The notes below the pieces were generated by a model that was not told the DNA's origin, did not search any database, and saw only the letters and a program-made list of their open reading frames with translations. 64,000 bases of DNA from Phorcus lineatus (lineage: Eukaryota; Mollusca; Gastropoda; Trochida; Trochidae). The DNA lies in the NCBI GenBank assembly GCA_921293015.1, contig OV121087.1:41092630-41156629 (forward strand). The letters are read 5' to 3'. The translations under genes and the position numbers were made by a program. This document shows positions 14,746-64,000 of the stretch, piece by piece. Position 1 is the stretch's first letter; each line of letters starts with the position of its first letter.

Positions 14746-17529
14746 CAGAGAGTTGTTTGTCTGCACCATTTCACTTGAGATCACTGCATGATAAACATTT
14801 AGAGAGAAGGCCATGTGTTATTGGCAGTGATTGACCGCTAATTTGATAAATGAATGATAATAATTTCAATTGTATGAACAAGCGATAAGTAAAGTGACAT
14901 TATTATAGTTCATGTGAGCATTTTGAACATAAGAATTTACATAAATGGTCTCATTAGATATCAATATTTTCAGACAAAGGGTTCATACGTGTGTCAGTTT
15001 ATTACTAATAATGTTTATATGTACGGAAAATACAAGCAATAAAAATTTATAGCCATTGTGCCGATGTTATTTCTCATATTTTCATGAATCATTGTTTTAA
15101 TTATATCATGCGCCTTATATATAAGATAAACACAAATGTTCATCTTAACAGCTTGAGATAAAATTCTAAAGGGAGGTAACTCTAACGTTCACACGTTTAC
15201 AACTGAAGATTACACGGAAAGGGATAGGTTCGAGTGAAGTTAGCTATTTTGGGCACTCGGTTCGCAATTAACAACAATGTCATCCAACATCACGAAAGTA
15301 GCAGTCGTGAGTATGGTTCAGTAATCTACACATGTTATGATATTGATAATTTTTTAATTCTCCAAGTGGCTATGTATATGATGTTTGTGATTACGATAAG
15401 TAATCAACAATTTCAACTAAATCAACACGACAATGACTTGCAGTATGCTATCATGGTGACAATTCATTTATTCACAATTGCAAAATGTGAAATTGATATG
15501 TATTGATATATTGTATGATTGATATATTACGTATTAGTTTATTTATGTACTAATTAATAATCTAACAGTAAAGGGAAATTCGATTTTCAATGCCGTCCAC
15601 TTGATCAGGACTAGCTGTAGAACTCCTCAAGTACAATTGATTTTTTAATAAAAGGCGACGTTAGGGTATCAAATAAAATATTTTGGCGAAGCAAATGTAT
15701 CTAGGTCAGGACAAATAAATGCCCGCGTCGTATGTTTGTTAGTGCGTATGCACTTTACAGGTGCAGCACAGCGGCCTCTGCCTCCACGCTTCACTGACCT
15801 CAAACCTTTAGACAATTAACTTTCTTCACAGCGTCAGGCTGATTTTGCCTACAGTTCAAGATGCAGTATAAATACCATTAACTGAAATATTGACAATTTA
15901 AGCTATATTGTATATGTTTGTTTTGGAATGTTTATTGTAATGTCATTTTAAAGATTTTGTTCAAAACTTGGCAGTTTTAAAGCCTCTGTTTATTAATTTG
16001 ATATTTCAAGTGCAGGAACATTTTAATGATGTTGATAAGCATGGCAGGTGAATGAGGTGATACTGATATTATTCTCCGATTAAAATAGAAATATTCTGTC
16101 ATGTTCAACATTGTTGATATACTCTTTATGAATGTTTAAGAGTAAAAATTACATTGTTATACATATGCAAATCTTTGTCTGATATCCAGGTATCTTTTCA
16201 TATGAATATACAGATGTATAAACCACAAATTCAAATGTTGAATCCCCGAATGTGTGAAAATAACAATTCTTAAACCTAGTTGTTGTTTTTTTTAGATATT
16301 TAACCTCCTGACCATTTCAGCATATGGAAAAGGATTGCAACACCAACATTTTAATTTAATGTTGAGATATTCCAGTGATGCAGAAATTATTTAAAGTAAA
16401 GATTTTTTTAAAGTTAAACCTTGTCTTAAGATATAAAAACCCCGGCCCATTAGGCTCTTCAGTATTTACCAAGTTAATCACATGAAAAACAGTGATCGAT
16501 AGAACCCTTTTAAAACACCAAAATTTTATAGTCTTAAATGTTTTAGTGACACAGCAATTAGCAATTAGAAAAGGGGGGAGTCAACATTTAGTTGCTTAGA
16601 TTGATGACTGAAGACACAAAAAAATGAAAGAAAGTCAGTATTTGTGCAACTATTAGAACAGAAGGTTGCTATAAATCATCCCCTTTTGTACAGAACAAGG
16701 GGTCGAGCTGTCCATGAGGCTATTGTTTCAGTTTTATTTTGGTAATACATTTGATCGAAGAGCTTTTGATATAACTGGACACTCCACCCCCATGTGTTCG
16801 AATGAATTGTTCTACTTATAAAGAAATAAAGAAAACCTTGGTGTTGCAAAAGTTTTCCAGGTGTATACATTTGTAGTTATTGTGAGTCAATTTTATTGTC
16901 AAAATTTGTTGTTAATGTTTTTTGTCAATTTCCACCTTCAGAGCTACAATGGAAATGTCTAGTATTGTATTTGATAAACTGGTAAACAATAAGCTAACAA
17001 ACTATTTTCCTCTGTTAACTAAAACACAAAATACTTCAGCTGTATCAGTGATGTTACAGTTGGCTTTAGTCAAAACTCTGCAAACTTTTTGATCTGGGAT
17101 TGGGAGAGGGGGGAGAGGGTTGAGGGTTGAAGGGGGGGTGAGGCTATAGAGATATTTCACATACAGGGTTTTGAACCAAGCCCCAAACCTGCCACTGATA
17201 GCAATTGTTGACAATGTCATCCATTTTCACTATCATGATTATGTTCTTTTTGTTATTATTTGAGTATAGAAGTATGCGATATTACTTCACGGACAAGTAT
17301 TTATTTCTCTGTTTGAGAACTTTTTATAAAAATTGTTATTTCTTTTTTTCAAATTCCATTTCATATCATACATTTTACATGAAAAGGCAATGTACATATC
17401 ATTGAGCTTTTATTAGCTCTTACTGAATCAGGAGTACAAAAAACTTCATGTTCATCACAGAAAATGTTTTGATAATGTTGATACTTATATTTGTATAAGG
17501 TTGGATAAGACAAGAATGCAGGCTGTGAG
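14746..17529. other. No recognisable gene or element
   Basis: AT-rich. The short open frames at 15234, 16676, 17002 and 17205 have no family signature. A GGTGCAGCACAGCGGCCTCT block near 15760 is GC-richer than its surroundings but gives no convincing exon. Confidence 0.5.
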
Positions 17530-19858
17530 ATATTAGTAATTTATGAGTGCTTCAATTAAGTATAGCAGGTAGTTGATTCCACTTCTCATCTAAAGATTCT
17601 ATCCTATTATTTTTTCTAGCTATAAATTTTTCAATGTTGTATGTCATCCTAAGACATTTAACAAATCCCTCAAAAGAAAGAACATGTTGTTTAATACTTA
17701 AAACATTAATGAATCCTTTGGCCAAAAGTATGACTTGGTTAAATACTTTTTTGTGTGAACAGAGTCCAAACATAATAGTAAATTTTGTAAGTGTGATGTT
17801 AGATTTAAGATGAGTATTTAGAAAAAGTTCCAAAGTACTCCAAAATTTCTTCACGAATTCACAGTCGAAATAAACATGCGATTATCTTCTAAGGAATTTT
17901 TCCAAAATATGCACAAATCATTATCAACTAGCTTCATCTTCATTAATTCTTTCTTTGTATATATCTTTCTGTAAATAAATTTGTATTGAAAATCTAACAG
18001 TTTACAATCACTTGTACATTTCCTATAAAATCTAAACACATCTTTCCAGCATATATCATGTTGAAAGACAGTATGCCAATAATCAAGTACCTTTGGGACA
18101 GTGTTGTCCCCAATTAATTTGTCATAGAATATCCTTGAACCTTTACTATTAGAAATCATATGATCATAAACATTGTTAGTGGCTTCATGATTCAAGCAAG
18201 TTATTTCTGTTGCCCAGTTGCTGTCTCCAGTTCTTTGGAATGTTATTTAACAAATGTTGATAATCTAAAAATGTTCCTCTAATATGGTATCTCTGCTTTA
18301 GAATTTCAAAGCTGAGAAAACCATTTTCCTCATAAATATCTCTGGTGTAATGTATACCATGATCATACCAGTTTCTTATCATAAATGAAGACTTAAAGAA
18401 ATGATTTAGCCACAATGGTTGGGACAAGATTTGGCTTATGTCATCATTGTCAAAAAGGTGTTTTATAAAGAATATTCTCAAAGCTGATAATACATCTTTC
18501 CAATAAGGATTAACATTGTCCGATAAGCAATCAACAGCATTGGAGCAAAGAGAGTCTAAGTTGCCCAAGGGAAAGATGTTAATAAAGCTGGAGTTTTTCT
18601 TCAAGTGGCATTTCAATGATGATAATTTTAAAGCATTGATAAAAGACTCAATGTCAATCATCCTAAGGCCTCCATCCTCATAATTCCTACTGATATTTGA
18701 CCTTTTAATTTTATCATTTTTGTTATTCCAAAGGAATTTATATACTATTTTTCTAAGTTCATCAATAAATGATTTAGGGGGGTTAGGAATTGCAGAAAAA
18801 ATATGTACTAGAGTAGAAACTGCTAAAGATTATATAACCGTGATTTTCCCAATAAGAGTCAAATTTCTCCTTCGCCAACAAGATAGCAATCTATTTATAT
18901 GTTCTAAACGTTTTCTTGTATTAATTACCCACAAGTCTTTAAGAGAAGCATTGAGAGTTATTCCTAATTTTTCAAAATCCCCACTGTGCCAATCTAAATA
19001 TAAATGGTTAATTAAAGTAATATTACTACCTTCCATGGAACCAATTCTTATAGCTTTAGTTTTGTTTATATTCATTTTCAGCCCTGACATTTAATAAAAC
19101 ATGTTGAGAGTTTCAGTTGCAGCATTGAGGCTTTTTTCAGATCCATTTAAGTAAAGCTGTGCATCATCAGCATATTGGCCAAGTTTTTGTTCTGTGTCAT
19201 TAAAGGGACCATTCGATCGGGGTATTTTTTGTGGAAACGAAATTCAGGAGGAGTTTCCTGTGAACATATATATATATGATTTTTACATGATTCTTTTCAC
19301 ACTTAATTTCAAATATGTACATGAATTTAACGTTTCAGTTGTTCAAGCTTTAACAATTTGACAAAGAATAAAGTGTATCGATCAAAAAAGAAAAACTTTG
19401 TGAAATGAAACCAATCGTCGGAGCTACGAATGTGGAATGCATTACTACGACAAAACATTGTCGTAACTGACAACTTTTATTATGAATTATTTGTAAACAT
19501 GCACCTCTGCCAGCATTCTATTAGTAATTTCTTATTTTTTTCAATGAATTAGCATAATAAAGCACATTTGATTTCTCGCAATGCTAACATTTCAAGATGG
19601 CGGATGAAAGCCGCTCGAATGGTCTCTTTAAGGGTTATTCCCTTTATATCAGAATTTGATCTTATCATAATGCCTAATATTTCAACTGCAATGATAAATA
19701 GATATGGTGAGATTGGATCACCCTGTCTACATCCCCTTTCTTGGTGGAAAAAAGATGAGATATGGCCATTTTGTATTACCGCTGCTGTATTGTTACTAGT
19801 TAGGATGTTTGATAACTTAAGTCTCTCACTGCTTAGATTCTTTCAAGAATAAAAATTT
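17530..19858 (-). mobile_element. LINE D, Tx1/L1-like, 5'-truncated and split by a MITE
   Basis: Minus-strand LINE of a different clade. Reading from 19858 down: VIQNGHISSFFHQERGCRQG, then GDPISPYLF (RT motif), the MITE, GQYADDAQLYLNGSEKS (intact YADD catalytic motif at about 19165-19180), MSGLKMNINKTKAIRIG, LIYKFLWNNKNDKIKRS, GGLRMIDIESFINAL and ENGFLSFEILKQRY. These are Tx1/L1-type RT and C-terminal motifs. A stop precedes MSGLK (at about 19092), and the frames 18185-18661, 17851-18195 and 17552-17854 are mutually shifted. The endonuclease is missing. The truncated 5' end is about 40 bp upstream of a reductase exon. Confidence 0.85.
19204..19627. mobile_element. piggyBac-type MITE nested in LINE D
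   Basis: 424-bp element flanked on both sides by TTAA (19200-19203 and 19628-19631). Terminal inverted repeats are AGGGACCATTCGATCGG and, on the other strand, AGAGACCATTCGAGCGG (15 of 17 match). Removing the element and one TTAA makes the LINE protein read KGITL-NDTEQKLGQYADD without a break, which shows the insertion site exactly. TTAA duplication is the hallmark of piggyBac elements (established). There is no coding capacity. Confidence 0.85.
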
Positions 19859-19901
19859 CACAGCCTCATTTTCAATCATTGTTTCTTTTTCTGTCTTTCA
19901 G

Positions 19902-22900
19902 GTGACTGGTTCTAACAAGGGCATTGGTTTTGCCATTGTGCGTGCTCTGTGTAAGAAATATGATGGAGATGTTATTTTAACATGTAAGTTATACTAATAT
20001 AACAAAAGTGTGCAATCACAGGTGCTTCCAGAAATTTTACTGTGGGATGGGAACCCCCTCATAAATGTAATATACTATATGGTGTTTGGGGCTTCACAGA
20101 ATTTATCTATTAATCAATGCAAAATGACAACAGTGAGAGGGGGATTGTGAGGGGGGGGATGGAGCAGAGGTTGGTAGTATCTCTCAAACTGAACCCTTAT
20201 AATTCAATTCATTTTGTTTGGCATATGTGACTCCAAACCAGAACTTTGACATATATCATGTTTATATAAATAGGTAACAATAAGTCTTTAAAGGATTTTT
20301 GGAAGTCGTTTTTTTAATCAAGGCATTTTAGACATAATAGCCTGTTGTTAAAGGCACATGGTATCCCATCCTTCTGTGAAAAGTCTCTAATTTCTTTTTA
20401 TCAGTAAAGAATTCTAAACTCTTGATTTGTAGTACATATATTTAGGTTGAAGATTTGGATTGTTTCAAGAATATCTGGCCGGATTTGTAAACAATTAAAA
20501 ATCAAAGATATTGTTTTCTTCTCTAAACCAGCACGGGATGAAGGTCGTGGCAAGGCTGCAGTTGAAGAACTCAACAAGGAAGGTTTGAAACCCAAATTTC
20601 ATCAACTTGATATTGATGATAAAAACAGCATCACAAAGCTCAAGACATTCCTGGAAACTACCTATGGAGGTCTGGATGTCCTGGTCAACAATGCTGGCAT
20701 AGCTTACAAGGTATCAGCAGTTTTTTGACCATCTACAACAATGGGCTTATCTCATGGCATGGCGCCAAGTGTCCATCTGTAATAAGAGCCCCAATTATAG
20801 TGGCCACACCCTATAAAACTTTTTCGTCCCTTTTTAGCTCATCAGGTCAGAAAGACCCGATGGGCTTATTGCATGGCAAGGCGTCCGTCCGTCCGTCCGT
20901 CCATCCGTAAACTTTTCACTTTTTCGACTTCTTCTCCAGAACCAATGACTCTGAGAGCTGAAATTTTATGTGCATACTCCTTGGCAAATGGGGATTCTAA
21001 ATTGTAGATTTCGTGACCCCATGACCCCAAATGGGGTCACAAGGGTCAAAACCTATAAAACCTAATTTCATCTTTTTCCCTAGTTCCAAAAGGTCTAGAG
21101 AGCTGAAAAGGTGTGTGTAGACTCCTTGGCCAACGGGGATTCTAAATTGTAGTTTTGGTGACCCCATGACCCCAAATGGGGTCACAGGGGTCAAAACCTA
21201 TAAAACCTAATTTCATCTTGTTCCCTAGTTCCAAAAGTTCTAGAGAGCTGAAAACTTGTGTGAAGACTCCTTGGACACTGGGGATTCTAAATTGTAGGTT
21301 TGGTGACCACTTGACCCCAAATGGGGTCACAGGGGTCAAAACCTTAAAATCCTACTTTCATCTTCTTCTCCAGTTCCAAAAGGTCTTGATAGCTTATTAT
21401 TTGTGTGTAGACTCCTTGGACAATGGGGATTCTGAATTGTAGGTTCGGTGACCCCTTGACCCCAAATGGGCAATGGGCCTTTTTTATTTGATTGTGAATA
21501 ACTCAGACGTTGGGTCAGACGTTGGGACAGGCTATCTTTCCTACACTGCCCATGACCCCATGGTCTAAACCCAAACACCTATTTCTATCAAAAGTCTGAT
21601 GAGCTACAGAGCCCATGGCTCTATTTTTTAATAGAAAATGCTACAAAAGCTTAAATTTTGTGAACAGACTCCTTAACTAATTGGAATCATAATTATGAAT
21701 TTGGTGACTCTGTTACCCTTAATAAGAGAGGTTTATAATAAATACAATTGGTGATCTTGTGGCACCTCATATGGTGACCAAGTGACCATTTATAACTAAA
21801 TAAATTATGGACAGCTTGATGAGCTACAGAGCCAATGGCTCTATATTATTTCAATTGTTTTCCCATTTCGTCCAATATCTTTTGGATTGTCTATTTCAAA
21901 TTATTCTTTTCAACTCAATGTTATTTTTAGCCCAAAATTTTTCAAAACACTATAAACAATGGCAAAATTTGAAAATATGTGAAGACCCTTGCTATATCTT
22001 AAATCACACAATCAAGGCGAACCACCTTACCTCTTCTCAAACCTGAAATTAACCACCAATTGGCTGGAGGGCAGGCAGTGTTTCCAGAGGTGCTCCCATT
22101 TCTCATTGATATCTATGTGTTTCTCAGGCTGCCAGCCCAGCTCCCTTCGAAGAGCAAGCTGAAGTTAGCTGTAAGACGAACTTCTGGTCTACTCTGGAGG
22201 TGTGTCGCCAGCTCTTCCCTCTTCTGCGTCCTCACGCCAGGTAAACATTTATTTATGAATAATGTTTATTCTACTAAGTCTCATTGTATTCTGCTTGTAC
22301 TTCACTCAAGTAATCAAATTGATATTTCATGTTTTGATAGTTTAGTAAGTGGGTGATGACGAGTGTCAAGATGTTTTATGAGTGCTTTAATATCTTAAAG
22401 AAGCAGAAGCATGTTTTTATCAAATTTATATCTTCAAATTTTCTCCAATAGATTTATGCCAAATGTATGACCAACAGGGGATCAAACATCTTAGAAAACA
22501 TCAAGTAACAAGTAAACACTGCAGATGGCCATTTTAGCGTTAACTCCTAGTGATCGTTTGAGATAGGGAAATAGATTTGCCTATCTAAACCAAATATGAT
22601 TGTTTTAGAAATGCCACATTTGATTTAAAAGATTGTCTTGCACATTGCAACAATTATTTTCCTTGGTGTCTTAATTCACCTAAAAAAAGAGCTATGATTC
22701 TTTAAATGTTCCTATTGTTGCTAGGCATTTCACATTTTTGCTGTATTAATAAAATGAAAATACTTTGGTACAAGAGATATCATGATGTATTATTTTGTGT
22801 ATTGTGTATTATTAAACTTTCTCTTGTTTGTTTCCCCCAGGGTAGTCCATGTGTCGAGCTTTACATCTCAGTTTGCTATAAGCAAGTGTTCCGAGGCTGT

Positions 22901-25900
22901 TAAAAATGGCTTCAAGGATAAGAGTCTCACTATGGAGGGGCTTGAAAAAAAGATACAAGAATTTGTGGAGTAAGAAGTTTATTTGTATATATATTTACAG
23001 CTTGTCACTTTTAGAAACTTCAGTGAAACATAGCATAGAGTGTGGCAATATTAGTATGGTCATAATCTTCTATTTTCTAATATAGTGCATTACCAATGGG
23101 TTATACAGTTATTATAACCCAATTAGTAATACACTATAGGCTAGCTTCAACCAGTTAACCAATAACAGTCTATGAGGAGCCCTTAGATATTGGGAACATT
23201 TTTTGTTTTGACTTGATAATCCTGTGACCCTTCATTAAAGCCAGGCCATAAAACATATTTTGCTTCTTTCAATCATATTGAGCTGTAATCAAGCTTTCTT
23301 CTTTTCTTGTCTTTGCACACCTTCATCGGTGAAAGGTTATATTCATTCTCCAGCCAATCAGTTGGGAGGTTATAAAGCCATCGGCACAAATGATCTTAGC
23401 AATTCAGTTATAAGATGTAGAAAAATTGACCAAATGACCAGTTGTATGATGTTATTGCTCTATTTTAGGGGGATGTTTTTTCTTTTTCCTTATTCATAAA
23501 AATACCTTGAGAGTAAATGATACGCATATGGCTGTTGTTGACGAGTAATTTATGGATGGGGATGCTGTTTGTGCCTTTTTTTAAGAGTCAATTTTGGGTT
23601 GGAATGCTAATTATGGTAAATATGATATTGAGTGATTGTACCATCATTAATTTTTAGCTCATCAGGTCTGAAAGACCCGATGGGCTTATGGCATGGCAAG
23701 GCGTCCGGCGTCCGTCCATCCGTCCGTCCGTCCGTCCATCCGTCCATCCGTAAACTTTTCACTTTTTCGACTTCTTCTCCAGAACCAATGACTCTAGAGA
23801 GCTGAAATTTTATGTGCATACTCCTTGGCAAATGGGGATTCTAAATTGTAGATTTCGTGACCCCATGACCCCAAATGAGGTCACAGGGGTCAAAACATGA
23901 AAAACCTATTTTCATCTTCTTCTCCAGTTCCAAAAGGTCAAGAGAGCTGAATATTTGTGTGTAGACTCCTTGGGCACTGGAGATTCTAAATTGTAGGTTT
24001 GGTGACCCAATGACCCCAAATGGGGTCACAGGGGTCAAAAGCTGAAAAACCTAATTTCATCTTCTTCTCCAGTTCCTAAAGGTCTAGAGCGCTGAAAAGG
24101 TGTGTGTAGACTCCTTGGCCAACGGGGATTCTAAATTGTAGGTTTGGTGACCCCATGACCCCAAATGGGGTCACAGGGGTCAAACCCTTAAAAACCTAAT
24201 TTCATCTTTTTCCCTAGTTCCAAAAGGTCAAGAGAGCTGAATAGTTGTGTGTAGACTCCTTGGGCACTGGAGATTCTAAATTGTAGGTTTGGTGACCCAA
24301 TGACCCCAAATGGGGTCACAGGGGTCAAAAGCTGAAAAACCTAATTTCATCTTCTTCTCCAGTTCCTAAAGGTCTAGAGCGCTGAAAAGGTGTGTGTAGA
24401 CTCCTTGGCCAACGGGGATTCTAAATTGTAGGTTTGGTGACCCCATGACCCCAAATGGGGTCACAGGGGTCAAAACCTAAAAAACCTAATTTCATCTTTT
24501 TCCCTAGTTCCAAAAGGTCCAGAGAGCTGAATAGTTGTGTGTAGACTCCTTGGGCACTGGGGATTCTAAATTGTAGGTTTGGTGACCCCATGACCCCAAA
24601 TGGGGTCACAGGGGTCAAAACCTAAAAAACCTAATTTAATCTTTTTCCCTAGTTCCAAAAGGTCTAGAGAGCTGAATAGTTGTGTGTAGACTCCTTGGCC
24701 AACGGGGATTCTAAATTGTAGGTTTGGTGACCCCATGACCCCAAATGGGGTCACAGGGGTCAAAACCTGAAAAACCTAATTTAATCTTTTTCCCTAGTTC
24801 CAAAAGGTCTAGAGAGCTGAATAGTTGTGTGTAGACTCCTTGGGCACTGGAGATTCTAAATTGTAGGTTTGGTGACCCCATGACCCCAAATGGGGTCACA
24901 AGGGTCAAAACCTGAAAAACCTAATTTCATCTTCTTCTCCAGTTCCAAAAGGTCTAGAGAGATGAAAAGATGTGTGTAGACTCCTTGGCCAACGGGGATT
25001 CTAAATTGTAGGTTTGGTGACCCCATGACCCCAAATGGGGTCACAGGGGTCAAAACCTAAAAAACCTAATTTAATCTTTTTCCCTAGTTCCAAAAGGTCC
25101 AGAGAGCTGAATAGTTGTGTGTAGACTCCTTGGGCACTGGGGATTCTGAATTGTAGGTTTGGTGACCCCATGACCCCAAATGGGGTCACAGGGGTCAAAA
25201 CCTGAAAAACCTATTTTCATCTTCTTCTCCAGTTCCAAAAGGTCTAGAGAGCTGAAAAGGTGTGTGTAGTCTCCTTGGCCAACGGGGATTCTAAATTGTA
25301 GGTTTGGTGACCCCATGACCCCAAATGGGGTCACAGGGGTCAAAACCTTAAAAACCTAATTTCATCTTTTTCCCTAGTTCCAAAAGGTCCAGAGAGCTGA
25401 ATAGTTGTGTGTAGACTCCTTTGGCACTGGAGATTCTAAATTGTAGGTTTGGTGACCCCATGACCCCAAATGGGGTCACAGGGGTCAAAACCTAAAAAAC
25501 CTAATTTCATCTTCTTCTCCAGTTCCAAAAGGTCTAGAGAGCTGAAAAGGTGTGTGTAGACTCCTTGGCCAACGGGGATTCTAAATTGTAGGTTTGGTGA
25601 CCCCATGACCCCAAATGGGGTCACAGGGGTCAAAACCTAAAAAACCTAATTTAATCTTTTTCCCTAGTTCCAAAAGGTCCAGAGAGCTGAATAGTTGTGT
25701 GTAGACTCCTTGGGCACTGGCGATTCTAAATTGTAGGTTTGGTGACCCCATGACCCCAAATGGGGTCACAGGGGTCAAAACCTGAAAAACCTATTTTCAT
25801 CTTCTTCTCCAGTTCCAAAAGGTCTAGAGAGCTGAAAAGGTGTGTGTAGACTCCTTGGCCAACGGGGATTCTAAATTGTAGGTTTGGTGACCCCATGACC

Positions 25901-28155
25901 CCAAATGGGGTCACAGGGGTCAAAACCTAAAAAACCTAATTTAATCTTTTTCCCTAGTTCCAAAAGGTCCAGAGAGCTGAATAGTTGTGTGTAGACTCCT
26001 TGGGCACTGGGGATTCTAAATTGTAGGTTTGGTGACCCCATGACCCCAAATGGGGTCACAGGGGTCAAAACCTAAAAAACCTAATTTAATCTTTTTCCCT
26101 AGTTCCAAAAGGTCTAGAGAGCTGAATAGTTGTGTGTAGACTCCTTGGCCAACGGGGATTCTAAATTGTAGGTTTGGTGACCCCATGACCCCAAATGGGG
26201 TCACAGGGGTCAAAACCTGAAAAACCTAATTTAATCTTTTTCCCTAGTTCCAAAAGGTCTAGAGAGCTGAATAGTTGTGTGTAGACTCCTTGGGCACTGG
26301 AGATTCTAAATTGTAGGTTTGGTGACCCCATGACCCCAAATGGGGTCACAGGGGTCAAAACCTAAAAAACCTAATTTAATCTTTTTCCCTAGTTCCAAAA
26401 GGTCCAGAGAGCTGAATAGTTGTGTGTAGACTCCTTGGGCACTGGGGATTCTAAATTGTAGGTTTGGTGACCCCATGACCCCAAATGGGGTCACAGGGGT
26501 CAAAACCTAAAAAACCTAATTTAATCTTTTTCCCTAGTTCCAAAAGGTCTAGAGAGCTGAATAGTTGTGTGTAGACTCCTTGGCCAACGGGGATTCTAAA
26601 TTGTAGGTTTGGTGACCCCATGACCCCAAATGGGGTCACAGGGGTCAAAACCTAAAAAACCTAATTTAATCTTTTTCCCTAGTTCCAAAAGGTCTAGAGA
26701 GCTGAAAAATTGTGTGAAGACTCCTTGGACACTGGGGATTCTAAATTGTAGGTTTGGTGACCACTTGACCCCAAATGGGGTCACAGGGGTCAAAACCTTA
26801 AAATCCTACTTTCATCTTCTTCTCCAGTTCCAAAAGGTCTTGATAGCTTAATAGTTGTGTGTAGACTCCTTGGACAATGGGGATTCTGAATTGTAGGTTC
26901 GGTGACCCCTTGACCCCAAATGGGCAATGGGCCTTTTTTATTTGATTGTGAATAACTCGGACGTTGGGACAGGCTATCTTTCCTACACTGCCCATGACCC
27001 TATGGTCTAAACCACAACACCTATTTCTATCAAAAGTCTGATGAGCTACAGAGCCCATGGCTCTATTTTTATGTTTGCAGCGCCGCTAAGGCAGGAAAAG
27101 TTGAAGAAAAAGGTTACCCAAAACAAGCGTACGCAATGTCTAAAGTTGGAGTGACTGTCATGGCTTTCATTCAAGACAGGGAAATCAGCAAGGAAGGAAA
27201 AGAAGATATTGTGATCAATGCAGTGAGTGATTTTCTTTCGTCTGTTTAGGCGTAACTCAATGCAGGCTTTCTTCTCTTTTTTGACTTAAGTGAATTATTT
27301 TCTAAATGGGCTGTTAGTACAAAAACATGTCATCCATTCAAAGTGAGTTCTAAATCAGCATAGGTTATAACTGTGCTCACACGAAACAAGAAGCTATTCA
27401 CTTCATCATTTGTAGCTGTAATGTATTTGAATTTGTAAATGGCTTTCTTTGAGTTCGGACAATGCTTATGTCTGAAATATTGCCCAATAACTCACTTACT
27501 AAAGTTTTGATGGCTAAATTGATTGTAAAAATAATGTTTTTTTAAAGCACTGTATCCATAAACTAGTTATTGTACAAAACATGTAAATAGTAATAATGAT
27601 ATTATATATTGGTATGAAATGGTATGAACATCAATATGTCTATGATATAATTTACCTTGTTTCTTCCAGTGCTGCCCAGGGTATGTGGATACAGACATGA
27701 GCAGCCACAAGGGGACCAAGACAATCGATGAAGGTATTTATTGTTGTTACATCGATGTACAAAATCTCATTTCAATCAGATCTAATGTAGGACTGATATC
27801 TCACAATGTTATGATCTAAATACTGTTTTGTAGTATTCATGTTTTGGTACATTTAGCACCATCCAATACGAAATCTTCGGCTTAATTTGATAAGTTTTCT
27901 AAGTATCATTGGTATACTTGGATGTAAAATCTTTGATACCTTTCTGACCATGCAGTGAGGTCAGTATCACATGCTTTTTAAATCTCTTAAAGCTTGTATG
28001 GAAGAAAGCTCCATAGGGTCGACGTCAATTTACATTTCATTTAATTCTTCATTACAGGTGCGGACACCCCTGTCTACCTAGCTCTGCTGCCCCCCAACAC
28101 CACCTCCCCAAAAGGGGACTTTGTGTCTGACAGGACCATCCAGCAGTGGGGGTAG
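19902..28155 (+). CDS. CBR1: Carbonyl reductase [NADPH] 1-like, seven exons
   Basis: Classical SDR that reduces carbonyls (quinones, ketones, aldehydes) with NADPH in the cytosol; no signal peptide or membrane segment. Exons: 19902-19983, 20532-20710, 22128-22240, 22841-22969, 27081-27222, 27670-27733, 28058-28155, all with GT/AG borders and matching phases; a first exon of a few codons lies upstream (candidate 5117-5128). About 272 residues in all, against 277 for human CBR1. Visible motifs: TGSNKGIG cofactor loop, TSRDEGRGK (the Arg-Asp that selects NADPH), NNAG, VHVSS (catalytic Ser), YAMSK (catalytic Tyr and Lys, exon 27081), CCPGYVDTDM, and the CBR-type end FVSDRTIQQWG. Introns after exons 20532 and 22841 hold minisatellite-core elements. 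It looks functional. The close paralogue lies 12 kb downstream. Confidence 0.93.
20836..21622 (+). mobile_element. Minisatellite-core element, copy 3 (shortest)
   Basis: 787 bp: start AGCTCATCAGGTCAGAAAG, a short GTCC tract (about 20884-20908), four 145-bp units (20930-21480; variable tracts gcaaatgggg, gccaacgggg, gacactgggg, gacaatgggg), and the end hairpin AGAGCCCATGGCTCT. Flanked by TTTTT on the left and ATTTTTT on the right. Lies in an intron of the CBR1-like gene, same strand. Confidence 0.87.
21635..21842 (+). mobile_element. Ancient fragment of the same element family
   Basis: A diverged single unit (AGACTCCTTAACTAATTGGA, then GAATTTGGTGACTCTGTTACC) followed by a well-kept end GATGAGCTACAGAGCCAATG-GCTCT. 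The unit is much more diverged than those of copy 3 next door, while the terminal hairpin is nearly intact, so this is an older insertion of the family. Confidence 0.7.
22525..22690 (+). repeat. Relic of the GGGGCAGTAGCAC MITE family
   Basis: GATGGCCATTTT, GAGATAGGGAAATAG and AGATTGTCTTGCACATTGCA in this order parallel the better copies at 28466-28814 and 50124-50460. Ends not recognisable. Confidence 0.5.
23656..27064 (+). mobile_element. Minisatellite-core element, copy 4 (expanded)
   Basis: 3409 bp in the fourth visible intron of the CBR1-like gene, same strand. Start AGCTCATCAGGTCTGAAAG, GTCC/ATCC tract at about 23700-23750, 22 units of about 145 bp, right arm, subterminal CTGATGAGCT at about 27038 and the end hairpin AGAGCCCATGGCTCT. 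Flanked by ATTTTT on both sides (23650-23655 and 27065-27070). The next exon starts at 27081, so only 16 bp separate the element from the splice junction. Confidence 0.88.
23770..26930 (+). repeat. 145-bp array with a 290-bp dimeric higher-order pattern
   Basis: Two unit types, told apart by the tract after CTCCTTGG: type A gccaacgggg and type B gcactggrg. They alternate B-A-B-A from 23966 to 26286, giving a 290-bp dimer, with one B-B slip at 26286/26431. The first unit (gcaaatgggg) and the last two (gacactgggg, gacaatgggg) are the same edge types as in the other copies. The many 65-codon frames on the minus strand are by-products of the repeat. Confidence 0.9.
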
Positions 28156-28814: not shown

Positions 28815-29039
28815 TTAAGCTTTTGCTTATGTCTTAAAAGGAGGAGTCAAAGATGTAGAACAATATTTGATAAAATAAATTGAATTAAGGAAGGTATCTG
28901 TTTTGCAAATTATCCCCACTTAGGGTTTTCAAATGATCCAAAAAAGGCCCACTTGTAACAGGTAGAATGTGGGTAAATATCACTTGAGCAGCTTTTGTGG
29001 ATTGAGAGTGCCTTTAAAAAATCTTAGCATGTCTCAAAG

Positions 29040-29985
29040 AATGTATTTGTTAAGGTATTTTCATTTTAAACTTTTAAAACATCATGTTGAAGAGAGTTTC
29101 TTATGGAATTTATGGAAAGTGTTAAATTTATTTACGATAAGGTCATTTTTCAGAATGAAATATTGAAAAGACATCACGATTTTACAACCATATACTTTAA
29201 AATTACTAATGATAACTCAACTAATAATTATTTGTATATTTGAGAATGGCTCTAGAATGCTCATTATTATTTTCTGAAACATATGCTACAAGCCACCTTG
29301 AGAAGCTTGCATTATGTAGTCGTTATTAATCGTTAGATACATAATCTTTTAACAAATTAAAACTGTATGTTATGTCTCTTTTAATTTGTAAACAGTATAG
29401 AAATCAAGCAGTTAAAATCAACAATTCATATTGACGAACAAAGAATTTTCATCCCTAACATATTGTGTAGAGGGAAAGTCTGTACAAGGCTGCATTATAA
29501 TACAAAGTTAAACTTTTATAACATCCCATAAATGTTATCACGTTGAAGAGAGTATTTTATGGAATTTATGGAAAGTGTTAAATTTATTTATTATAAAGTT
29601 GTTTTACACGATGAAATATTGAAAAGACAAGACGTCATGATTTTACAACCATATACTTTATGTTTACTAATGATAATACAACTAATAATTATTTGTATCT
29701 TTGAGAATGGCTCTAGAATTCTCATTATTATTATCTGAAACATATATTACAAGCCACCTTTAAAAGCTTGCATTATGTATCATTATTAATCATGAGATAC
29801 ATAATCTTTTAACATATTTTAAATTTTTGTTGTGTCTCCTTAAATTTGTAAACAGTATAGGAATCAAGCAGTTAGAACAACAATTCATATTGACGAACAT
29901 AGATTTTTCATCCCTAACATATTGTGTAGAGGGAAAGTCTGAACAAGGCTGCATTATAATACAAAGTTAAGTCCATCAAGAATCT
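29040..29985 (+). repeat. Two-copy tandem duplication, period about 455 bp
   Basis: Long matching blocks such as GTTGAAGAGAGT...GGAATTTATGGAAAGTGTT and CCCTAACATATTGTGTAGAG recur about 455-460 bp apart. Copies are about 90% alike by eye. No coding content. Confidence 0.8.
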
Positions 29986-32327: not shown

Positions 32328-32409
32328 TGACGTCACATATTGCATGTCACTGATATCCGCCGATAAGGTCACGTGACGTCAACTCTGATGACGTCATAAA
32401 TTACGTCAA
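32328..32409. promoter_or_regulatory. Cluster of CRE/ATF-type TGACGTCA palindromes
   Basis: Three perfect TGACGTCA sites at 32328-32335, 32374-32381 and 32389-32396, plus TTACGTCAA at 32401-32409 overlapping the inhibitor stop codon. An ACGTG E-box-like core overlaps the second site. They lie in the 3' flank of the minus-strand inhibitor gene. The function is inference. Confidence 0.45.
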
Positions 32410-40003: not shown

Positions 40004-43000
40004 ATGTCTACGCAACGAAGACTCGCAATTGTAAGTTGGTATTTTTACTATTTCACTATGTATGCATCAGTTAAAATCCTAAATCCACTTAGTCAACATG
40101 AACAATGTATGAGATATACTTGGATGAATATTTGCCACCGAACGTGTGTGTTCAAGATCTCAAGGTCTCGCCAGCGATCGCACTCGCTGTCTATTTTCTC
40201 TGTGTGCTCTATGAATAGCGATTTTGAACATTGAGATGCTGCGTTGGTGTTTTATCGACCTTGAACTTGGCCTATATTTCGTACACGGTGTCAGGTTTCT
40301 CGACTTCGGAAATATAGAGGTATTTTCTGTATCTGTCATCAAGGCGACTACAATCATGCTCCCATTTCAAACAGACCTCTCTAATTGACGGATAAGAGCG
40401 AAATGGATATTTTACATCTCTTCATCCACATTCAACAAGGAGTTACTTATTAGGGGGCGTGTAAAGATCTGCATCATAAAGAGTTTGCAACTTTTAGATA
40501 GACTTTCAAAGAAATAAGTTTTTTCATTTTTTCTTGTCAGTTTGTTTAATTATTATTTTCCCGGAGAGCTTATATAGAGGAAAATAATTAATTCTCAATG
40601 TATTATTATATGTTGATATGGAAATTTTAATTGGAGATTAATTACCTGGATTAATTTTTTTTTCTAAGAGCTCATTTAAAGCAGAAAATATATAGGTTAT
40701 CAGCTTGAAATTATGAATTCGATTCTATATATATTTACAAAGTCCAATTTCATTTTGAGTATTCAGTAAAAGAGTTTATGCTCTTCAACTTTTACTAATA
40801 AACAATCAATTCTTAAGCCAATTAACATTGTGTTTTTAACATTTTATACACGATAAGGAAACAATTCAATTATCAACAGAAGTGAAAATTGATAATGTTA
40901 AATGTTACCTATTTTCAATAATGCCCTCACTTTTCATTTAAACCTTGATTCATACAATCAACTTGTTATGTTTACTAGGTTACGGGATGCAGCAACGCCA
41001 TAATGTTTTGTGTAGCGCGAGAGTTGTGCAAGCACTTTGACGGAGATGTAATCGTGACTGGTTAGTAAAATACAGTACTTGCCAAAAGTAATTGTCATGT
41101 TTTGCGAGACGTACGCGATGTTCTCTTAAGATCTCATCATATTATTTAGCATTTTAAAATTCAGTTTTGACACCGGAAAATAAGATGTGAACGGTCTTGA
41201 CCAATGGCTATTCAGATTTGCTGTCAGAGTCGATATATTCTTCATCTTTTAAAATTTTCTGTATTCCTTAATCATAAGCGAAGATCTTGCATGTACGCTT
41301 CTCTTCGGCTTTCACTTTCCCTAATGCTTGGATAATCTTATTACAGTAATTATGAAAAGGTACCTCATTTACTCTTTAATTAAATGTAAACCTTCATTTT
41401 CATTACCTTTAAGTGCAAATGTAAAGTCATAATTAATAAAAGTCGTAAATACAGTTAGGCGTAGGAACATATTTTTTTATATACACGGAGATTGAATTCT
41501 TTGATGCGATTATGTGTTTAACTTTTATTTCAGCTCGGAATTCAAATTCCTGCTTATGCGTAAGACAGCTGAAAGAGGAAGGTTTCCGGCCGATGTTTCT
41601 CAAACTTGACACTTCTGATAAAGATGACATTGATAGATTTAATCGTTACATCAAAACCAATTACAGCGGTATCGATGTACTCTTTCATAACGCTGCAATC
41701 GTGGGAGTTGCGGTATGTGTATCCTTCTCGTCAAATTGACATATGATATCTTTCATAAAATGTAATTTGGCTTTGATACGTGTCAAAATATCATATATAC
41801 TGATAAGTTCAAATCGTATAAATCAACTTGCAAAGTTGCTTGTTAATGCGGCACCAGAATATGCTTGCTTTACAAATGATATGTCCTATTGTTCGTTGTA
41901 GTTAACCAAGAATGACGTTTGTATGTAAGATTCCTTTTCTAAGGCCCGAGTAATCTCAAGTCGACATCTCGATACCCGAAAACTGAACTTATGATTAAAT
42001 TGAACCTTTATATGAAACTTTGCATGTCCTTTTTACATCGCGTCAGTTTAAATTTTCCCTCCCCTATCGCAGTGAGTCACGGGCAAGTTCTGTATGATAT
42101 CGACGATTCAAAGTCGCGTGGCTTTTGGACAGTTGTGTCAATTGTTGTGAAAAAAATGAAGTTTTTTGTGCAACAGAAATGAAAGACTCAGTCAATAATT
42201 ATTTGATAATTTTTGGTTTTGTTTTGTCCCAGAACAAAATCTCAAATTTTTCACTGGGAGTAAAAAGATGTCTCAATACTAACTTCTTTGGAACGCTAAC
42301 ATTGGTCAATAGCTGGTGGCGTCTCTTAAAACATCACTCCAGGTAAGTCTGTTGATAAAAATTGATATTTATTGAATGAATTTATACTTACTGAAATGAT
42401 TTAGCCTAATGATAATCACATTTAAGCACGAATTTCTTATTGGCAAGTGTACATTTTAAACATAATATAAATCACACATGTATGTACGATACTCGATACG
42501 ATTTAGGTCATGTAGTTTTAGGTTATTATCCTTTTAATCGTCAAATATGCAATTTTGACAACAAATAGACTTGCCGCTTTAATATCATCGTGCTTTTGGC
42601 TTAAGAGGTCTTTGCATTTTTAATTTTCTTTAATTTTCCCCTTCCTGTAAATATAAGGTGCTGAAAAATACTTTAACTGCAAAAAGATTAAAGCAAAGGT
42701 AAAGATAACTTTAATGTCAATAACATTAATAATGTAATAATAATGACGATTTATGTAGCTATATAGATGTGACTCACTATTTTGAATATCTACTCCTTTC
42801 AATACAGAATCTGTGTGGTAGCCTGCAGTCCAAAATCTACTTTGTTAGAATGTTCTTCAGCCATTCAGCTGAAATTGAAGGACCACAGTGAGAACAAAAC
42901 ACTGGGAGAATTAGGGGCTTTAATGGAGGATTTCTTACGGTAAGTATTGTTTATTGTTATAAGTTAAAACATCAATATCGATTTCAGGGACCTAATCTAG

Positions 43001-46000
43001 AGATTTTCTTGAATAGGTGGACGGGACTAGAAATCGATGAGCAAAGTAACTAGATTGAAGAAAATATTTTCAGTAGATGATTTATGAGTCATTCTAAACA
43101 GGTTGAGAAATGTTATTGTCATATCATAGCATTCCAAGTTTAAAAATTTCAAAATTACCCCTTTTGGCACTTGGCTCAAAATTAACCACTTTTTAACAAT
43201 TTCGGAACTTTACTGAAGGTCCTAACGGACCCAAGTGCGAAATCAACTGTGCTGGAAGCGCTTGTAAAATCTCCAACCTCATCATCATATCATATATTTT
43301 TTGGTGAAGTTTCATTACGAATGAAAATTTCTGAAAGGGGAAAACGAATACAACTTCTTATAGAATATAATGTATTCATTGTAGTCTGATTTGTGAAATA
43401 CGCCTTGTTTTCGGTTAAAAAATATTTAATTTCACTAAGTGAAATAACACGATGTTCTACACAGTGAACAAACATTTTGAAGCACATTTATTTTTATTAT
43501 TTACATCATGTAGCAACTGAAATAGATGATTCTGATGAAACTAGCCGATCTGACTACTCCATTCATGAAACGTATGTCATTTCCTAAATTTCCTCTTTTA
43601 TTTGAAATATATTAAAACGAACATTTGTTATTTCACGTCGAAAGCCATATATCGTGGGTTTAGAACAAAAAGGTACCAAGTGCACTTTTGGCACTTTTTC
43701 ACTTTTTGACAGAAATGGAATCTGTACGATCCATGCCACATCTCAGCAAAGTTTGGAATTAATATCTAAATTAGTTAATGAGATAATGAGAGAATCAAAA
43801 GGTACCAAGTGCATAACTCAGAAAAGTTTGGAGCAAAAAGGTACCAAGTGCTATACGTTGCGTGTAAAAAGGTACCAAGTGCAAAAATTTACCACTCAAC
43901 AGATTGCCAACAAGTGCCGGATTGTCTTATGTAAATTGACTATTAAAGTTTATTTAAATCTAATTTAGCAATCTTTTTAGATAATCTGTGCTTGGTGACA
44001 CTCCTTGTTTCTCTGTGTAATACTTTTCATCCAAATAATGGGGTGAAATGATTCGTCATGAATGGATAATTTGGCCTTTGGCCTAATGAGGCAAATGAAT
44101 CGCCAATTTTTAAAGAATCAATGGTTGATCGGAAAAGGATAATGACTGGATGAAATTAAGAACATATGTATGAAAGTAAATTTAGCTGGACGAAAAGCAT
44201 AATCTGATTATTTCATTAAACTTATTAACAGTTATAACCCTTGAAAGCAACTATATAAGAAGAGAAGAAATGACAACGCGTTGTTTCAACTTCCACTCTT
44301 CCACCAAAATTATTTGATTTTGGGATACCAAACCAAACATTATTCATTGACCCAAAGGAAATTGACTCTAAAGATAAATCATTAAGGGATGTTGACCAAC
44401 GAAAACACTCGTTTGGTTTTCTTACATACAACAAAGTTATGATTTTCTATCATCTATTTGCTATAAAATTTGGTAGTGTTTTTATTTCAAAGTATGAAAG
44501 TTAATTTGTATCATATTGATTAGAAATGTATTGAATATGTGCAGGGTGTAATTATATAATTTGCTTGAATTGTTAGAAACACATCTTTGTTACAGATCAT
44601 CAGACTTAGCGTATGGCAGTCAGCGTTTAATGCCTTTGCTATTTTTATCATAATCAATAACATCACATTCAATGATATCGGAGATTGCATCAAAGTACAC
44701 AGATACAGAAATTGTATATGATATTTCTGATGTTCTGATCGTAACTTTTGATACAACAAACACTCAAACAATGTACTCACAAGCTAATACACCCTTCATC
44801 AAATACAATAGAAGTGATTGATTTTCAAGGAGAGAAAGTTTATGTTATTCTAATGTATATCTTCAAAAAGGAAATATATTAAAAAACTTGCTTTAAAATT
44901 TAAATGAATAATAACCTTATTCTGAATCTTTTATTTGATTTAATTCATTTCCAACAATGTAATAGTATTCGCACAATCACTTGCAATACAGAGTCGGGTT
45001 TGGGATATCTCTCGAAAAAATAAAACAAATGTTACCAATTGAAAGGAGTCTATAGACGAACGTACACAATTTGGTTGAGCTAGGCAAAACCAAAAATTCC
45101 TTCTATGACTACTGATAATAAATTAGGTAATCATGAGATGTTTGACCCTATAATATATTTGGCATTAACTACAATTTATTGGAGAAAATATTAACAAAAT
45201 ACAATTTTAAAAAAAATATGTGCTCCTGTCCCTTTAAGATAACACATATTTACAAAAATATTTAATAAATTTGATCATTATAGATCTTGAAATGTCTATT
45301 TATTCAATTTTTAAATATTGTTGTATCATCGTTAAAAGCCTCACATACACTTACAAAGTGGTTAACAACTAATCTTAGCAAAGTAACTGCAAAAAAACCC
45401 CTTAATATTACAAATGATTGCCTTAACTCAACCAAAATTTTTACAACAAGGTACCAAATGCCACTTGGTACCCATAACCTTGACTGCAAACATGAAAACT
45501 GTTGAGTACAAAAAGGTACCAAGTGTCACTTGGGACTTTTTTAGCTCTGAATCTCTTTCCAAAATGTCCACTCATAAGGTACTAAGTGGCACTTGGTACC
45601 TTTTTGCTCCAAACATATTTGTGTTTTCCATGATTTTCAAAAGTACCAACTGCGATAATTAACCTAATCAGAAACTGGTAAAAGATAAAAGATTGACTTT
45701 ATTCATAACTAAAGTAAAATCACTAGATGTACATGTCAGACCGATAAATAACAGCAAAATAATTGCAATGATCACATGAAACCTTTGAATGCGTTTTTCT
45801 CAAAACTATGAAAAGTGCACTTGGTACCTTCTTGTTCTAAACCCACGATATATCGGTTAAAGGAAATATTGTTCATGCGCCACTCGTGAAAATGATAATG
45901 TACTATGTTAGAATGTGATATACGGTATTCGACGAGAAAGGTCAAATATCATCTGTGTGTATAGGTAAACTGTTGATTAGCGCATGTGAATCGTTTATAC

Positions 46001-48648
46001 GACATGGGAGCGGACATAGCTTCCTATCATGAAGGACGTAGCAAAATATCGAGTATAGTTTTCATCGTGTCTAGCTTTGTTTAGGGAACTAAGGTTGAAC
46101 CAATTAGTTTCTGTAGAACATACACCACATAGCCAGGATAGTGTAAATATCACTTCGACAGTAGTAGCAACGTGATAACAACCGGCAAAATAGGATTCCG
46201 GAAAAACAAGATAAGGCAGCGCAGCTGAGATTTGCTTTCAGGAAGTAAAAGGTCAACTTGATATGCCAGAGACACTCAACCTCTCATATCCTAGAAGATT
46301 TAAAGTTTCGAATTGCAACTTTTTTGCAAGTTGCAAGCTAAGAAAGTATACATTAAATCAGTCTAGTTTTCCCTTTTATGAAAGATAGTGTCGCATGGAC
46401 GTGATAACAGCCAGTAATTTCGTATTTCATATAATACATGTAGTTCCGGCATCAAAAACAATTAGGACATTATACTCATATATTTTAATGAACGCCCCTC
46501 GCTCAGTATGGTTATATAGATAAAAGAAGTTTATTTGTCCGCTTTGAAAATAATGCCATTGGTTTTCTTAAAAGTTAAACAAGATTAAAAGATGATATTC
46601 GATAGCTATGGTAAATCTATGCCATACAACCACGTATTTGTTCATCAAATACACGCTATAATGCGTTACCAACTTACCAGAAAAAAAATTGAAATACGCT
46701 TTTCAATCATTTTCTGATTCGCTCTTTAAATACGTCATTGATCCAAACACTGCAATAATGCAGCCATACAGTCTTGACTGAACAAATATATGAGTCACGG
46801 AATAAATACTTTTGTGCAACTGCAATAATGAAGCCATAAATTCTTGTCCCAAGTTTTATATAACGTTATTATTTTCTGTTTCATAGCATATTTCGACCCA
46901 ATCTTATGATGCTCGTCTAACTACGTATATAAGTAATATGTTTACGTAAATGTTTACATTGTGTACATTTCAGTGAGGGCCAGAGAGGAAGCCACTTCAG
47001 ACTGGGTTGGGCCACGGATGCCTTCGGTATGAGTCAGTTAGCCATTGCTGTATTGGTCAGTATTTTGACCAGGAAGGCAACTGAGGATTATAGAGGGGAC
47101 ATAGCGGTCACTTGTGTAAGGCTTTGATATTACATTATATTTTACATGGGCACATATTACTGTTGCCCACAAACGGTTGTTTGAGCGCCATTTTCTGTTT
47201 ATTTCGTCGTCTGTGGCGTCATGAAATAATTGTTTATGAGTGAAGCGGACCTCATGACAAATGAAGCAAGCATTTTTTCTATATATTTCAATACCAATAA
47301 AATGGAATTGAATCGGTAATAAAGACATTTTCACACTCGGAGGTGCAAATTTGTGTACAACGATTGCTTTTGCCCTGGTACTATATAAAGTCCGACGATA
47401 ACGTTCGTAAAATTCATATGACACACTGTCTCGGTTAATGATCTTAATAAAGAACACATATCGCATAAAAAATAACATGACACAAATAATTCTAAAATGA
47501 ATCCAACCATATGATGTGTTGACACTATTTATCATGCCACGACTGATACATCAGATCTGCGGAACGTTCTTTAAGTCTCTTTTTTATGCACAGGTTTACA
47601 TATGTGAGTAAATTTACTTATGTATGTATATGCATTTGAGGTATGTAAAAGTGTCATGAGAACATAATTACACACATAAGTATTTTTGCACTTGTAGTTT
47701 TTGTCATGTAAATGTAAATTTACACATGCGTATTTGTACACGCTTTGCAAATTGTGTCATGAGAATGGAATTGTGCGATATTCAGCTGCTGATTGCCAAT
47801 TTATGATCAAATTCAAGAGCTTCCCGTACACTTTTACCCTGTCTGGATAATGATGGTTAAAGTTCCTCACAAAGAAATTCAAATGTCGTCTTGCTCATTC
47901 TGAAGTTGCCCATCAAAAGTTACTTTCACAATATAGCACCACCAATTCCTTGTCCTCTCTTTTGACCGTATTTTCTTCTCTTGAACAAGTCCCAGGACAA
48001 GGTGGTACTAAAAAAAATAGGGAAAATCCCCTCTTATCTTAGCATAGCAAAGTCTGGCACTATAGATTGAATCTATTCATAAATTTTAGGTAGTGTTATG
48101 AATATATGTCAGTATGTAATAGACATATACACCTTATTGCTTAACATCATGAGAACAGAAAGTATATTTACTATTACACATGCATGTTTATTTACATATA
48201 GTACATATAAGTAAATTTGTGCATGAGAAAAGGGCCTAAGAGACCGGGCATGATTGGCTCAGTTAGTTATTCCGCTGCACGTTGTTGTTGAATAATTCAT
48301 GGTATATGCCAACTCTTTAACAAAATATGTTGTTGTTTTATAAGTTGATATTTGAAACTTAAGGCATTCTGATTATATTCAAATCACTGTTTCGCTCCCA
48401 AGTTTTATTTTGGATTGTCATTCTCACTCATCTATGATCTGAAGGAATCCTTAACTTCAACTTAACATTTATTAAATTATTGAATCTAGCATTTTGAGTG
48501 ACAACATAAAAGTTATCATGCAATTACAAATGCCATTTTATTCAAACGTTGCTTTTCACCTTTTCAGTGCATTCCGAGTCACAAGACAAAGGATATCTTT
48601 GGCTACAGTGTGCCTCTGTCACCTACAGAAGGGCTGGACGTGGCCTGA
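40004..48648 (+). CDS. SDR carbonyl reductase paralogue lacking all catalytic motifs
   Basis: Exons 40004-40030, 40979-41060, 41534-41712, 42233-42342, 42808-42939, 46974-47115, 48568-48648 give an uninterrupted 250-residue frame with GT/AG borders. Exon lengths 82, 179, 110, 132 and 142 and all phases mirror the CBR1-like gene (82, 179, 113, 129, 142). Yet the motifs are replaced: TGSNKGIG is TGCSNAIM, TSRDEGRG is TARNSNSC, NNAG is HNAA, VSS is VAC, and YAMSK is FGMSQ (Tyr to Phe, Lys to Gln). The last exon fuses through the old donor position and stops at once (TEGLDVA), so the usual C-terminal strand and FVSDRTIQQW end are gone. Predicted cytosolic, no signal peptide. Either a pseudoenzyme with a new role or a young pseudogene; kept frame and splice sites favour the first, loose residue use the second. 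Confidence 0.8.
43650..45850. mobile_element. 2.2-kb TIR element with repeated GGTACCAAGTGC motif
   Basis: Lies in intron 5 of the second SDR gene. Terminal inverted repeats TATCGTGGGTTTAGAACAA / complement, continuing to GGTACCAAGTGCAC (about 40 bp); both sides are bordered by TA (43648-43649 and 45851-45852), which fits a TA target duplication. GGTACCAAGTGC recurs at 43672, 43801, 43840 and 43871 in the left arm, and in both orientations, often as head-to-head pairs, at about 45450, 45515, 45578 and 45815 in the right arm. The interior is AT-rich with no transposase. Non-autonomous; superfamily uncertain. Confidence 0.75.
47590..48235. mobile_element. Possible MITE-like segment
   Basis: TACTTATGTATGTA near 47615 is roughly inverted relative to TACATATAAGTAAATTT near 48205, and GTGTCATGAGAA recurs inside (about 47650 and 47753). 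The ends are imperfect. Confidence 0.3.
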
Positions 48649-49626
48649 AGAATAAAAACTGTACATGTACTCAAGAAGAAAAGACAATTTGGATGAAGCC
48701 AAATATACGACTATATACTTGCTCATGGATGAAACAAATGCACCGACCTTCGTATGTAGATGTGTCATAATAGATTCCTCTAATTATAACTCAAGATAGA
48801 AATGCGAGATAATTTACCGTTGCAATGTACATCTTATTCAAGTTATAATAAAGTCCTATGATATTGTTAACAATATCGAGGTAACTGTTAGCGGTCTGTC
48901 GTTGGCTAAAGGTTATCGCAGCCATGTACTAATGAATACAATTTTATGACTTCAAATTCTTTATTCGTAAGCCACAGGTCGCTAGCATTACCTGTAAATA
49001 ATTCAATTTGGAACCTTGACCCAATGAGTTGTTAAAGCCCCATTTACCAATCGTTATCAATGATCTCATTTTAATAGAAACGTACTTACGGTTGCTAAAA
49101 ATGTCATCTGAAGGCTGATCACTGAAAAAATACAGGAACAAAATGACTGTAATGATCAGAAACCGGACAATGGCTGGCGACCGCAAATTACTCAAAACTT
49201 AATTTGGGAAAGTTATCGACAGTCAGAAGGACAGATTGGTACATGTGAAGTTTGATATGTCATTTGAAATATTATGCATGCAAGATAACTTCGACAACAA
49301 TGATGTATATTTCGAGATCTCGTATGCAGATTTTTTCCCTTTGAAATGGTGAGATGAATGTTGTATACAGGTAATATAACTCTCGATGTTATAGTGATTC
49401 CCTGAGGTTAGGAGAAATATTTTTTACCGTTAACATGAACCTTTTCATCCTAATAAGACATACATGTAAGGACAATCAATTTGAAGGGTAGTTAACAATT
49501 TGTAATTTTTCCAGCTGAAATTGGTTTAAATGTCTTTGAGTGTTAAAGCTCAAGAACGTTTACAGAGCCTATACTTTTATTCGTTGTATGGTCCAATGAC
49601 CACTAGTTCTCTATATACTGAGGTAT

Positions 49627-63925: not shown

Positions 63926-64000
63926 ATCAAATAAACAATTCTTACGATATACCTTTAAAAACAATTTCGCATCACATTGCTAGTTTGAATTGGAAAATGA

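Follow-up and report, generated by a model that had tools for sequence, protein, structure and literature searches.

A divergent CBR1-like gene of Phorcus lineatus with an altered active site and a lost last exon, a candidate pseudoenzyme

What becomes of an enzyme gene that has lost its catalytic residues but still reads as one open, spliced frame? The question is raised by a gene at positions 40004-48648, on the plus strand, of a 64 kb stretch of the Phorcus lineatus genome (hereafter the window; G000:C12:41092630-41156629 of a 958 Mb genome). The original prediction had described a paralogue of the short-chain dehydrogenase/reductase (SDR) family with every catalytic motif replaced, and had proposed a pseudoenzyme. 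The reading that we favour, with moderate confidence and from sequence comparison, is that of a fast-evolving pseudoenzyme, a divergent paralogue of CBR1 (a classical SDR and detoxifying carbonyl reductase) that has long been under protein-level constraint. Probably, the gene either encodes a non-enzymatic protein or was lost only recently.

Splicing the seven exons gave, as predicted, 250 uninterrupted codons and a TGA (753 nt), with no internal stop and no frameshift, and all six introns have GT..AG borders. The gene is composed of the following parts:

40004..40030, plus strand: exon 1, MSTQRRLAI, phase 0, donor GTAAGT
40979..41060, plus strand: exon 2, from the dinucleotide loop VTGCSNAIM (VTGSNKGIG in the neighbouring CBR1-like gene) through FDGDVIVT
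41534..41712, plus strand: exon 3, with ARNSNS, LKLDTSDKDD and HNAA
42233..42342, plus strand: exon 4, with TNFFGTL; the tetrad Asn, N113, is retained
42808..42939, plus strand: exon 5, with VVAC against VSS in the paralogues (catalytic Ser to Cys139)
46974..47115, plus strand: exon 6, with FGMSQ against YGMSK in the closest paralogue (Tyr to Phe194, Lys to Gln198)
48568..48648, plus strand: exon 7, now terminal, CIPSHKTKDIFGYSVPLSPTEG followed by the read-through LDVA and TGA
48651..48656, plus strand: possible polyadenylation signal AATAAA, 2 bases past the stop codon

Exon 1 resembles the candidate first exons of four paralogues (MSSNITKVAV, MSGSRKIAV, MSAVKKVAV and MAALSNSRVAV). AATAAA occurs 81 times on the plus strand of the 64 kb, which makes a single one near the stop weak evidence.

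By descent the gene is a CBR1-like SDR, with sequence homology beyond chance. Its product matched human CBR1 (PDB 1wma) over CBR1 residues 5-248 (phmmer E 6.4e-37), CBR3 (PDB 2hrb, E 1.3e-37), the CBR1/CBR3 entry 1n5d (E 1.9e-38) and the Pfam domain adh_short (E 4.9e-16, 59.2 bits against a cut-off of 26.6). It is thus of the same family as CBR1 and CBR3, and differs from them in the replacement of the catalytic Ser, Tyr and Lys and of two loop Gly, as well as in the absence of residues ~247-276, which exon 8 encodes. Searches with this protein and one paralogue, followed by exon modelling, recovered six further CBR1-like genes in the genome, a set that comprises what the searches scored and is possibly incomplete:

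15277..28155, plus strand: neighbouring CBR1-like gene in the window, 8 exons, complete motifs, 278 amino acids
15277-15306, 19902-19983, 20532-20710 and 22128-22240, plus strand: exons 1-4 of the neighbour
22841-22969, 27081-27222, 27670-27733 and 28058-28155, plus strand: exons 5-8 of the neighbour
C12:42.51 Mb: paralogue 97.8% identical to the window neighbour, exon 1 unassigned in the model
C12:46.78 Mb, C12:49.57 Mb and C41:18.90 Mb: intron-bearing CBR1-like paralogues
C37:20.95 Mb: intronless CBR1-like gene

The product of the neighbour matched human CBR1 (1wma) over residues 5-276 (E 2.8e-94). Exon lengths and phases had both been said to match this neighbour. The intron phases are indeed equal at all six introns, whereas the lengths are identical in three of seven exons (82, 179 and 142 nt), differ by 3 nt in three others (27/30, 110/113 and 132/129), and diverge at the last one, which is terminal and 81 nt long here; in the neighbour it measures 64 nt and an exon 8 of 98 nt comes after it. 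The structure of exons 1-7 is common to the CBR1-like paralogues of the genome, and the lengths of exons 1-6 differ from theirs by multiples of three; the paralogue exons were modelled from homology and consensus splice sites, and exons 2-6 were given in advance the phases of the gene studied here, so that agreement in phase is partly by construction. In the protein tree, the gene grouped with the C12:46.78 Mb paralogue (98% support, 37.9% identity), and its branch, at 1.29 substitutions per site, was the longest of all. An origin as a copy of the window neighbour was rejected, since the nearest paralogue by the tree lies about 5.6 Mb away. Unlike the gene considered here, that closest relative has its full length, exon 8, an intact glycine loop and all three of Ser, Tyr and Lys.

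How much of the active site is left? PMC2741203 gives the roles of the SDR catalytic tetrad, Ser139/140, Tyr193/194, Lys197/198 and Asn113/114; the functional positions beyond the tetrad were our own choice from SDR motifs, and one such choice was used. We compared the functional residues with those of the five intron-bearing paralogues and the intronless one. The catalytic Ser is replaced by Cys139 and the Ser before it by Ala138, the Tyr by Phe194 and the Lys by Gln198, while the cofactor loop TGxxxGxG reads TGCSNAIM, with Ala16 and Met18 at its second and third Gly. Further replacements affect the first Asn of NNAG (His88), the Gly of PG (Ser228) and the next Thr (Lys232). Given the loss of Ser, Tyr, Lys and two loop Gly, the product is predicted to be incapable of acting as a normal carbonyl reductase. 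If translated, it would lack the means for carbonyl reduction by the SDR mechanism, and its binding of NADPH would be weak or absent. The FxxxQ signature was found in none of the six modelled paralogues, more distant SDR matches being outside this comparison.

The claim that every catalytic motif is replaced went too far, however. We defined invariant columns by the four motif-complete paralogues (the neighbour, C12:46, C12:49 and C41), and 8 of the 17 functional invariant positions are kept (T11, G12, R38, D62, N89, A90, N113 and P227), including the Arg of 'TAR' (R38), the adenine Asp (D62), the second Asn of NNAG (N89) and the tetrad Asn (N113). The Arg-Asp motif and NNAG, which had been counted as changed, retain R38, N89 and A90, and two further positions vary among the motif-complete paralogues too: the closest paralogue shares the Ala at the last NNAG residue (Ala91 here), and C41 has Gly for the second NADPH Arg (Ser42 here). 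Nor is the loss concentrated on the active site, as had been proposed. We counted 9 of 17 functional positions lost against 32 of 70 other invariant positions (one-sided Fisher P 0.39), or 7 of 14 against 18 of 40 with the intronless gene added to the set (P 0.49), and the replacements are no more radical at the functional positions (mean BLOSUM62 0.11 against 0.13, P 0.96). This equal loss suggests that catalysis no longer protects the active-site residues. The proposed pseudoenzyme is thus supported by the lost catalytic residues and by a branch that bears signs of constraint (see below), but not by the distribution of the losses.

Such a site might also belong to an enzyme of another kind, in which the fold binds a substrate and a different reaction is carried out by a rebuilt site of Cys139, Phe194, Gln198 and Asn113. 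The longest branch of the tree, with its conservative replacements, would agree with a neofunctionalised enzyme, as would the retained tetrad Asn, adenine Asp and one Arg. With two Gly of the dinucleotide loop replaced, one of them by Met, cofactor binding is nevertheless doubtful, and we consider this explanation improbable.

Of the 7 modelled CBR1-like copies, 3 with an open frame have the catalytic Tyr replaced, the present gene included. The C12:42.5 Mb and C37 copies have also lost it (to Leu and Asn, respectively) with an open frame, and unlike the present gene they retain the Ser, the Lys and the glycine loop. In the C12:42.5 Mb copy (L029, G000:C12:42508400-42508541, compared with window 27081-27222) the change of Tyr to Leu falls in a group of four codons of which three differ (CAA/CAT, TAC/TTG and GCA/GGA), NNAG has become NNVG, and the frame is open over exons 2-8. 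The intronless C37 gene (L032, G000:C37:20947063-20947887, minus strand), possibly a retrocopy, reads NVISK instead of YxxxK. Finally, window segments 28978-29085 and 32303-32410 are matched almost identically, in translation, by sequence flanking the 42.5 Mb copy (L029, L036), which suggests a segmental duplication that extends beyond the neighbouring CBR1-like gene.

The C-terminus is shortened and derived, as had been noticed, and we found that this reflects the loss of exon 8, which had not been recognised as such. The altered donor lies at the following position:

48632..48633, plus strand: former exon-7 donor, GG here against GT in all five intron-bearing paralogues

In each of these five paralogues a 64-nt exon 7 is followed by the GT donor of intron 7. 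Here the homologous 64 nt end at 48631, and past the GG the reading continues for four codons (LDVA) to the stop at 48646-48648. Exon 8 was read in four paralogues (the window neighbour, C12:42.5, C12:46.8 and C12:49.6), and the fifth, C41, has an exon-8 match at the expected place. Exon 8 aligns to CBR1 residues ~247-276, which would comprise the final helix of the fold and the C-terminal strand of its sheet. A tblastn search from 48501 to the window end at 64000 recognised no exon 8, the best match being a short gapped one on the opposite strand (E 0.13). A 'KGTYVTD' match near 56192 was rejected as an exon-8 relic, because a stop follows it directly and no exon-8 sequence precedes it. Across the genome, exon 8 was matched only at the remaining five genes with introns and, besides these, at the intronless one, in a search weak enough that four true paralogue exons scored E 0.5-0.6 and a diverged exon could be missed. 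As exon 8 is no longer recognisable, its loss was probably not very recent.

Could the terminus have been mispredicted, with a distant or diverged exon 8 restoring a normal C-terminus? The gene model was drawn from sequence alone, the tblastn search ended with the window, and a diverged exon 8 could escape a genome search in which true matches score so poorly. Over 21 codons, however, the alignment of exon 7 to the intron-bearing paralogues is gap-free, the donor position is GG, and each intron 7 read in a paralogue is shorter than 1 kb; a restored exon 8 would, moreover, still leave the catalytic residues lost. Such an artefact is in our view very improbable.

Has the protein been maintained in spite of these losses? 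A GY94-type codon branch model (F3x4, seven sequences, one starting point) gave the branch of the gene a length of 1.49 changes per codon and an omega (ratio of nonsynonymous to synonymous rates) of 0.25. Neutral evolution over 1.49 changes per codon would be expected to leave 20.6 stops in 250 codons by point changes alone, and none was seen (P ~1e-9). The replacements are also conservative, with a mean BLOSUM62 score of -0.13 to -0.16 against -0.68 to -0.80 in stop-free neutral simulations. This test used three stand-ins for the ancestor and those columns (138-172) in which another paralogue has the same residue as the stand-in; in each of its 12 settings, 0 to 2 of 400 simulations were as conservative by BLOSUM62 and 0 to 9 of 400 had as small a change in hydropathy. 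On the missing stops and the conservative replacements together, a wholly neutral history of the branch is rejected. The GC content at third codon positions (0.47) is near that of the paralogues (0.47-0.55), unlike the intron GC of 0.32. The view of the original prediction that random decay would have hit the frame too is supported, in that the branch was not free of constraint, by the absence of stops, by length differences of exons 1-6 in multiples of three and by the conservative replacements.

Several results weigh against the pseudoenzyme reading. In the branch model, the log likelihood was -5357.80 when omega was free, -5358.78 when it was set to 1 and -5358.76 when it was set to the background, so that neither omega of 1 (P 0.16) nor the background of 0.05-0.06 (P 0.17) was rejected; the model separates neither because synonymous sites are saturated, third positions being near saturation at 35.5% identity to the closest paralogue. 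Invariant columns are kept in 54% of cases against 40-43% for variable ones (P 0.07, 0.12, 0.10 and 0.14, depending on the definition), a contrast that favours constraint slightly but is weak for a fold-constrained protein. The GC content at first codon positions (0.45) lies below the 0.52-0.55 of the paralogues, towards the introns, and without exon 8 the fold could be less stable. In addition, the constraint tests yield averages for the branch as a whole, and their signal may stem from an earlier, enzymatic phase of the gene.

The main rival of a binding role is accordingly a recent unitary pseudogene, that is, a divergent SDR that was functional until lately. Selection, the exon-7 donor and exon 8 would then have been lost, with too little time since for stops or frameshifts to arise. 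The donor and any recognisable exon 8 are gone, active-site and other invariant positions are lost at an equal rate, and omega of 1 on the branch is compatible with the data, as this explanation would have it. A short neutral tail could also leave the frame open: the probability of no stop is 0.06 at 0.067 neutral changes per site (0.2 per codon), and 0.25 at 0.033 per site. Against it, the functional losses are spread over five exons (2, 3, 5, 6 and 7) and must have occurred either earlier, when the product would already have been a pseudoenzyme, or all very late, and exon 8 is unrecognisable and thus was probably not lost very recently. We regard recent pseudogenisation as a serious, though minority, possibility.

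We lean instead towards a gene that is still functional today. The product would be a pseudoenzyme that was retained for its fold during most of its history. It would keep most of the Rossmann core, and any function would be exerted by binding, of a ligand or of another SDR subunit, and not by catalysis. That the protein has such a binding role at present is what we infer, as somewhat the better supported view. PMC3793261 describes regulatory SDR proteins as NAD(P)-sensing and provides, in HSCARG/NMRAL1, NmrA and MAT2B, a precedent for an SDR fold that regulates by binding. These three were likened to the product by description, and none is named among its 47 listed PDB matches. According to the same source MAT2B keeps the catalytic triad, whereas the gene studied here has damage in the cofactor loop itself. 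Since those SDR regulators are described as NAD(P)-sensing and this loop is damaged, redox sensing would suit the gene less well than the binding of a ligand or partner.

Intron 5 of the gene contains a further feature:

43642..45858, no strand assigned: transposon-like element with 57-nt inverted arms, 88% complementary

This element, of about 2.2 kb, matches with its left end at least 40 dispersed stretches of the genome, among which are its own two arms; the count is a lower bound, as 40 of 82 candidate stretches were scored. Of the 40 scored stretches, 29 have 95% identity or more, which suggests that the element was recently active. Elsewhere in the window we observed a reverse transcriptase fragment (735-1706, RVT_1 E 8.4e-20), a weak match to a MULE transposase (36260-36817, E 4.8e-4, below the Pfam cut-off) and an open frame with a tandem MRGSK/MRGSM repeat (61990-62373). 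The mitochondrial contig (19115 bases) carries about 2.9 kb of a repeated hexamer that reads Tyr-Met (G000:C74:6298-9201). Its genes, named by eye, are ordered COX3-ND3-ND2-COX1-COX2-ATP6 on one strand and ND1-ND6-CYTB-ND4L-ND4-ND5 on the opposite one, which would be a molluscan arrangement of the vetigastropod type.

Among the titles listed in literature searches, none named a CBR1-like pseudoenzyme in molluscs, although a title search does not exclude one in print. More tentatively, the gene could encode a stable, expressed binding protein derived from CBR1, with a six-stranded Rossmann core and without cofactor binding, catalysis or the last strand of the sheet, possibly one of several Tyr-less CBR1-like proteins that act with intact enzymes. 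Were the gene only a young pseudogene, the finding would be ordinary. If the pseudoenzyme reading is true, an SDR that lacks the cofactor loop, the catalytic residues and the last exon would test how little of the fold a non-enzymatic SDR needs.

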